From an uncultured Rubrobacteraceae bacterium (GTDB lineage: Bacteria; Actinomycetota; Rubrobacteria; Rubrobacterales; Rubrobacteraceae), in contig CADCVE010000030.1 in NCBI GenBank assembly GCA_902806065.1, positions 1-43,891 of the forward strand: 43,891 bases of DNA, given 5' to 3'. The notes beneath the pieces are model-generated. The model did not search any database. It saw nothing but the letters and a program-made list of their open reading frames with translations, and was not told the origin of the DNA. This document shows positions 2,993 to 36,969 of the stretch, one piece after another. The translations under genes were made by a program, and so were the position numbers. The stretch's first letter is position 1. The number at the start of each line of letters is the position of its first letter.

Positions 2993-3174
2993 ACTACCTC
3001 CTCCTCCAGGCAATCCTCAAGGGATTGCACTCCCTAGATCGCTGGTAGACCGGCCGCCTCTTCAAGATGGAGAGGCCCGTGGCTTTGCGTACCCGCCTCA
3101 CGGCGGGGCTGCCCCTGACACAGCTCGAACACGTTAACACTCTTTAATAATCATGAACATTCCACACCGCCTCG

Positions 3175-36432: not shown

Positions 36433-36828
36433 TTACGGGCACTCTCCGGGATGCTGCTTACAGTAAGGCTTGTCGCCGGGGAGCTTGCCGCGAACGGCGG
36501 CGATAAAGGCGTAGCCGAGGTCCTGTAGCTGCCGGATACCAGGTAGCTCGTACAGGAGCAGCGGCAGCGCCACGCCGGTAGCGACAGCCAGGGAGGCGTT
36601 GATCGCCCCGGCTCCGCGGTAGCGTTTGCCGTCGGGTGATACGGCCCACGCGGCCGCCTCGCATTGCTCGGTGCTCAGTCCGGCCGAGGCGGGTATGCCG
36701 GGCTTCTGGTAGGGCTCCGCCGACACGCGGCGGCCACGGTCGAGCCTCTTGACGAGGCGCGCCGACCACGTTCAAAACCCTCACGCACCGTCGAAGATCA
36801 GGGTCAGTCTCTGTGGCAACGCGGCCAA
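36433..36828 (-). CDS. DCC-family (DUF393) thiol-disulfide oxidoreductase with two in-frame TGA codons: candidate selenoprotein
   Basis: Read from TTG at 36828 (GGGAG 7 bases upstream), the frame gives M-A-A-L-P-Q-R-L-T-L-I-F-D-G-A, TGA (36781-36783), G-F, TGA (36772-36774), T-W-S-A-R-L-V-K-R-L-D, and continues in one frame to TAG or TGA-free coding sequence that ends at 36433. The part after the TGAs is a normal DCC-family body: WAVSPDGKRYRGAGAIN, LPLLLYELPGIRQLQDLGYAF, and a Cys-rich tail YCKQHPGECP. In this family the N-terminus is D-G-x-C-G-F-C, and both cysteines fall exactly on the two TGAs. With TGA read as selenocysteine the protein is 131 residues, the usual family length. If TGA stops translation, only a headless fragment from a GTG at 36726 remains. 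TGA is an ordinary stop elsewhere in this window. Either a Sec-Gly-Phe-Sec protein or, less likely, a double nonsense mutant. Confidence 0.75.
36735..36770 (-). promoter_or_regulatory. Candidate bacterial SECIS hairpin
   Basis: Directly after the second TGA the RNA can fold into a lower stem of about 8 pairs with two G-U pairs (centre GGTCG at 36763-36767 with CGACC at 36738-36742), an internal loop of 5 and 2 bases, an upper stem CCTC/GAGG, and an apical loop GTCAA (36749-36753). The loop begins with G-U, as in the SelB-binding SECIS of E. coli, and lies 19 bases after the second TGA and 28 after the first. That range is what bacterial SECIS elements use. The hairpin lies inside the coding sequence, as in bacteria. 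Confidence 0.6.
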
Positions 36829-36969
36829 GGCTCCGCTCCCTTCTTTCTGGCTCTCTGGAACCCTACCATTACGCGCCCCGGCCCATGCAAGCATTCAATG
36901 TCTGAACCCGGGGCAAGGAGCGAGGTGATCGACCTCGAACTGTCTTGGCAGGCTGGTAATAGTACCGTA

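Follow-up and report, generated by a model that had tools for sequence, protein, structure and literature searches.

A DCC1-like protein of Rubrobacteraceae as a predicted Sec-x-x-Sec selenoprotein with a SECIS-type hairpin

Bacterial SECIS elements have been modelled as hairpins with an apical loop 16-37 nt from the UGA, an early G in this loop and a minimum free energy (MFE) of -7.5 or below (PMC13188914, legend of Fig. 2). With a SECIS element at the ribosomal A site, unwinding is expected of the lower part while the upper part remains folded, and recoding at one UGA in vivo amounts to 30-40% (PMC4513850). The table of prokaryotic selenoprotein families in the 2026 review comprises 119 entries, and PF04134 or DCC1-like proteins are absent from it; a UxxU motif appears among the predicted selenoproteins of this table in three other families (PMC13188914, Table 1). 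Our own search of a literature collection with a minority of the subscription papers and no bioRxiv preprints found no work on selenoproteins among DCC1-like, DUF393 or PF04134 proteins. For the genus Rubrobacter, a table in a 2006 paper credits Rubrobacter xylanophilus with five selenoproteins (PMC1794560).

Here we analyzed a window of 43,891 nt, i.e., the whole stretch of DNA under study, from an uncultured Rubrobacteraceae bacterium (GCA_902806065.1, contig CADCVE010000030.1). Read with TGA as Sec (U), the frame of the gene in question is open from its start to its stop and contains exactly two TGAs (Table 1), and its active-site motif becomes U-G-F-U in place of CxxC. Standard-code ORF calling splits the gene at a TGA, and it is therefore easily missed. 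The encoded protein belongs to PF04134 according to Pfam, with a match over residues 10-118 (E 7.9e-14) that scores 53.3 bits against a gathering score of 27.8; NCBIfam assigned no family to it. Its AF2 model reached a pLDDT of 89.9. Foldseek gave no match at E <= 0.001 for this protein, and structure comparison returned entries for GST-like proteins, NrdH and thioredoxin at Z 4-6.3. At the C terminus, a PYC....P..C motif (36436-36500, minus strand) is kept in 12/12 Sec-type proteins and reads PWC....P..C in the Cys homologue L021; this motif could be a source of resolving cysteines. The gene lies next to a GNAT acetyltransferase, an NAD synthetase and an alpha/beta hydrolase in the window and next to a zinc-binding dehydrogenase in Rubrobacter marinus, and between the window and this one other genome the neighbors share no theme. 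Elsewhere in the window, a c-di-GMP-I riboswitch was found at 3041-3123 on the minus strand (46.1 bits, gathering score 35).

Table 1. Features of the predicted selenoprotein gene and its hairpins (positions in the window)
Feature	Positions	Strand	Remarks
DCC1-like (PF04134, DUF393) predicted selenoprotein gene	36433..36828	minus	TTG start, TAA stop, two internal TGAs = U16, U19
TGA1, predicted Sec16 codon, first Cys of CxxC	36781..36783	minus	TGA in 12/12 orthologues from Rubrobacteraceae; the CxxC homologues read have TGC
TGA2, predicted Sec19 codon	36772..36774	minus	TGA in 10/12, TGC in 2/12 orthologues
H1, SECIS-type hairpin	36735..36770	minus	fold selected across orthologues; pair 21-42 covaries
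H1 apical loop GUCAA	36749..36753	minus	27 nt from TGA1, 18 nt from TGA2
H2, second conserved hairpin abutting H1	36716..36734	minus	covariation; overlooked in the original prediction

Among 99 genomes searched, 21 had a match to the gene, 12 of its own family and nine more distant. The 12 own-family genes come from 39 Rubrobacteraceae genomes (own genome included), R. marinus among the carriers, and a profile search in 39 genomes of the class recovered the same 12. Ten of them contain two TGAs and two contain one, each aligned with a conserved Cys position, whereas the nine distant matches are free of stops; distant homologues have Cys in these places. A candidate start codon is found 15 codons upstream of TGA1 in 12/12 orthologues, and the protein sequence remains conserved before and after the UGAs, with 58-75% identity to the sequences from the 11 other genomes. 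The two genes with a single TGA (UxxC; L011 and L013) form one clade (97/91) that lies next to a UxxU gene and inside the UxxU rows. This position in the tree makes a single loss of the second TGA probable, and by appearance a recent one.

Further afield, the motif was read in 13 loci out of 29; two Rubrobacter loci (L104, L107) carry UxxU, and the remaining 11, among them L110 described below, carry CxxC. A sample of 198 genomes from across the phylum yielded 49 PF04134 matches; 47 have no internal stop, and the other two are the window gene and a gene of genome G017, with two TGAs each. A tblastn search of plasmids gave three matches with 31-33% identity. A DCC1-like gene with a CGFC motif in a Chloroflexales metagenome-assembled genome (L110, 2966-3355) shows one TGA together with further in-frame stops; judged by its sequence it is apparently a decayed copy or the product of a poor assembly, and it was excluded for its several stops.

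The genome of origin contains SelA, SelB, SelD and tRNA-Sec, all scoring over their cut-offs; selA, selB and the tRNA-Sec gene (anticodon UCA, 66.5 bits) stand in a row on one contig (C94). Its selD, which we sought in this genome only, has one in-frame TGA of its own, and so does an FdhA-like gene, at a UH motif, that scores below the FdhA family cut-off. In the 12 carriers, tRNA-Sec was found over the cut-off in 10, selB in nine and a selA match in 10. The carriers with misses (G006, G007, G025) are assemblies of 60-77% completeness; in G007, the 75% complete genome of the UxxC gene L011, no selA was seen, and neither selB nor tRNA-Sec exceeded the cut-off. Two genomes hold extra components. 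In G040, a second selB (371.6 bits) adjoins a tRNA-Sec-like gene (50.7 bits) at C16:7670-9672, beside the main set, and in G076, selA and selB each match twice (C55/C109). These extras may represent a further, divergent set for recoding of the Sec type.

Behind the TGAs, a hairpin with the loop GUCAA had been predicted, and it exists over exactly the predicted span (H1, Table 1); as claimed, its loop starts at base 19 after TGA2, which is base 28 after TGA1. The lower stem can likewise be drawn with the eight pairs and the internal loop expected from the original prediction; in the upper stem, we counted five pairs instead of four. The lower stem pairs nt 14-21 with nt 42-49 as numbered from TGA1, including two G-U pairs, and the internal loop sets GCGC opposite one U. 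A 40-nt fold reached -17.4 kcal/mol, with z -1.79 against dinucleotide shuffles, 13/200 of which were as good. For the 61-nt stretch that had been proposed for folding (36730-36790), z was 0.06, and the MFE structure pairs part of the lower stem differently. As shuffles of the single sequence reach its stability in this way, H1 alone would not convince; in the single sequence it is within chance for GC-rich DNA, and it is beyond chance once orthologues are compared. Rfam gave no SECIS family match on the window or on 36650-36850. A mascRNA match in Rfam (E 0.084, below gathering) was discarded as chance.

We applied the bacterial SECIS model with an apical loop of 3-9 nt, a stem of 4-16 bp in which small interruptions were allowed, and an MFE <= -7.5. 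Loop, stem, MFE and distance from UGA1 all fall within these limits in 12/12 genes. Measured from UGA1, the H1 loop is 25-27 nt away, and measured from UGA2, 16-18 nt; as had been proposed, both distances are within the published range. A G is present in the first two loop bases of the window gene and in 11/12 orthologues; the closest orthologue, L010, has the loop AUC and lacks it, so that the MFE fold agrees with the full model in 11/12. However, two of six Cys homologues also pass by MFE fold, and a third does by a suboptimal fold. Because of the former two, the model alone is a weak test.

We therefore turn to selection on the fold itself. In a synonymous null, each orthologue was compared with recodings that preserve its peptide; codon usage was taken from ten ORFs of the window plus the twelve genes, which suits the Cys homologues less well. 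Over the H1 stretch (nt 13-48 from TGA1), the mean z was -2.61, and p ranged from 0.0005 to 0.0445 in 12/12 orthologues, compared with 0.08-0.95 in six Cys homologues that served as controls (L021, L022, L111-L114), a subset of those found. The 36-nt window was picked after the fold had been seen, and with 39 nt, p stays below 0.05 in 9/12 orthologues. Scanned in 42 sliding windows, the gene shows its only peak at codons 3-5 after TGA1 (mean z -2.3 to -2.7); the remaining 39 windows have a mean z of -1.3 or weaker. A second null kept the phylogeny, i.e., codons were relabelled column by column and the identity pattern among sequences was retained. None of 1500 relabellings reached H1, neither in mean stability nor in consensus-fold energy. 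Three control stretches showed no raised consensus fold, although mean MFE was somewhat low in two of them (z -3.0 and -2.1). Codon choice points in the same direction: in codons 4-15, identical codons make up 0.686 of the same-residue pairs versus 0.352 expected, compared with 0.595 versus 0.445 behind this stretch and 0.516 versus 0.456 in front of it.

The fold is also backed by base changes. For orthologues that keep the TGAs, the original prediction had called for a stable fold and compensatory changes, and we find the fold stable in 12/12 and compensatory change present. In H1, pair 21-42 is GC in eight genes, CG in three and unpaired in one; five of the 10 consensus pairs are invariant and hence uninformative, and the register of the upper stem differs among orthologues. 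The UxxC genes keep the H1 fold with UGA1 alone. H2 abuts H1 and has seven pairs in most orthologues and six in the window gene, with the loop CGUGA in most orthologues and CGUGU in the window gene. Of its cells, 98.8% are paired; pair 53-65 is GC in five, GU in four and AU in three genes, and pair 54-64 is CG in 11 and UA in one. These changes partly accompany amino-acid changes (Arg/His, Ala/Val/Thr). Under the phylogeny-keeping null, H2 was reached by 5/1500 relabellings for mean stability and by 2/1500 for consensus-fold energy; under the synonymous null, p is below 0.05 in 9/12 orthologues and in one of the six Cys homologues (L113). Taken as one structure, H1 and H2 pair in 96.6% of cells. 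Three pairs are changed on both sides, which 4/500 shuffles reach, and this involves seven cells, which 0/500 reach. A helix closing both hairpins (nt 7-11 with nt 76-80) shows no covariation and was set aside.

With a probability of roughly 85%, we hence read this gene as encoding a DCC1-like Sec-x-x-Sec protein in which H1 acts as SECIS for both UGAs. The SECIS interpretation of the original prediction is thus supported by the comparison of orthologues, and one hairpin serving both UGAs is the simplest reading. We infer that Sec is inserted at both codons, that SelB binds H1, shared by the two, and that the product functions as a redox enzyme. The protein would be a small DCC1-like thiol-disulfide oxidoreductase with a Sec-x-x-Sec pair as its active-site CxxC. 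SelB loaded with Sec-tRNA(Sec) would bind the H1 loop and bring Sec to the ribosome. Given the partial unwinding expected for a SECIS element at the ribosome (PMC4513850), H1 would act as a whole at UGA1, still outside the mRNA channel with its loop 25-27 nt away, and with its upper part at UGA2, where the lower stem would be melted and the upper stem-loop would stand 16-18 nt away, a spacing like that in the genome's own FdhA-like and SelD genes. Since recoding at a single UGA is put at 30-40% in the same source, two UGAs should lower the yield.

H2 is probably in some manner part of the recoding signal, and a helper role for double recoding would make sense. We may tentatively speculate about a compound signal in which a two-storey H1 works in two registers and H2 reloads SelB or paces the ribosome, a possibility to which we give about one chance in three; if true, two selenocysteines would be inserted three codons apart with the assistance of H2. 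In a different arrangement, H1 and H2 might both load SelB and supply two Sec-tRNA complexes for the UGAs 9 nt apart. H2 abuts H1, is under RNA-level selection with covariation and carries GU in its loop in 12/12, and the single-UGA FdhA-like and SelD genes show no significant hairpin at nt 46-75 from their UGA (p 0.126 and 0.762), all of which would fit such a tandem. However, the H2 loop lies 44 nt from UGA2 and 53 nt from UGA1, outside the range of 16-37 nt, and L011 and L013 keep H2 without TGA2, though the loss of TGA2 looks recent. Moreover, the GU belongs to a Val codon that all 12 genes retain, and the Cys homologues L022, L111, L113 and L114 have a Val codon there as well. We hence consider two loading hairpins unlikely.

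Far less probable still is an altered code in which UGA is read as cysteine or tryptophan. Cys is the outgroup residue at these positions and a Cys reading would fit the protein, but UGA is still a stop codon, because 4/12 orthologues terminate this same gene with TGA; in addition, the genome of origin possesses the tRNA-Sec, selA, selB and selD described above, and a selected hairpin follows the UGAs. It is just as improbable that the hairpins arise as a side effect of GC-rich codons together with peptide conservation. The unimpressive single-sequence shuffles and the two control stretches with somewhat low mean MFE would be in agreement with this, yet the nulls that keep peptide, codon usage and phylogeny rarely or never reach either hairpin, the consensus fold is raised in no control stretch and Cys homologues of similar peptide lack H1. 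Finally, a broken gene or two short genes with translation ending at the UGAs, as might be read from ORF calling, which lists nothing of the gene but its downstream part (36433-36726), besides an ORF in another frame, can be dismissed almost entirely in view of the protein conservation across the UGAs, the placement of TGA at the exact Cys codons and the selected fold behind them.

From these sequence comparisons it is well supported that PF04134 newly joins the predicted selenoprotein families, with a hairpin of SECIS type; the second conserved hairpin was unexpected. The predicted selenoproteins would thus gain a family with a rare Sec-x-x-Sec active site. Ten double-UGA and two single-UGA genes form a natural set for asking how bacteria decode two Sec codons three codons apart, and the same set bears on the purpose of a second conserved hairpin behind a SECIS. 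Like the elements of the bacterial SECIS model, H1 is located within the coding region and follows the UGA immediately, with a small apical loop and an early G (11/12); unlike them, the window gene has two UGAs 9 nt apart before one hairpin, and a second conserved hairpin follows. The genome's FdhA-like and SelD genes likewise carry an in-frame TGA with a hairpin behind it, at loop distances of 18 and 20 nt, respectively, compared with 18 nt from TGA2 here, but each has a single UGA, and nt 46-75 from it hold no significant second hairpin. By sequence, the window protein belongs to the same family as the DCC1-like/DUF393 CxxC proteins (PF04134). The members read outside Rubrobacteraceae are CxxC, and none in the phylum sample outside this family of bacteria has an internal stop, whereas the window gene has predicted Sec at both motif positions. 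With the Prx-like thiol:disulfide oxidoreductase (PF00578), the NF041115 metal-binding protein and the FmdB family of the review (PMC13188914), it shares the Sec-x-x-Sec motif, while the protein families differ.
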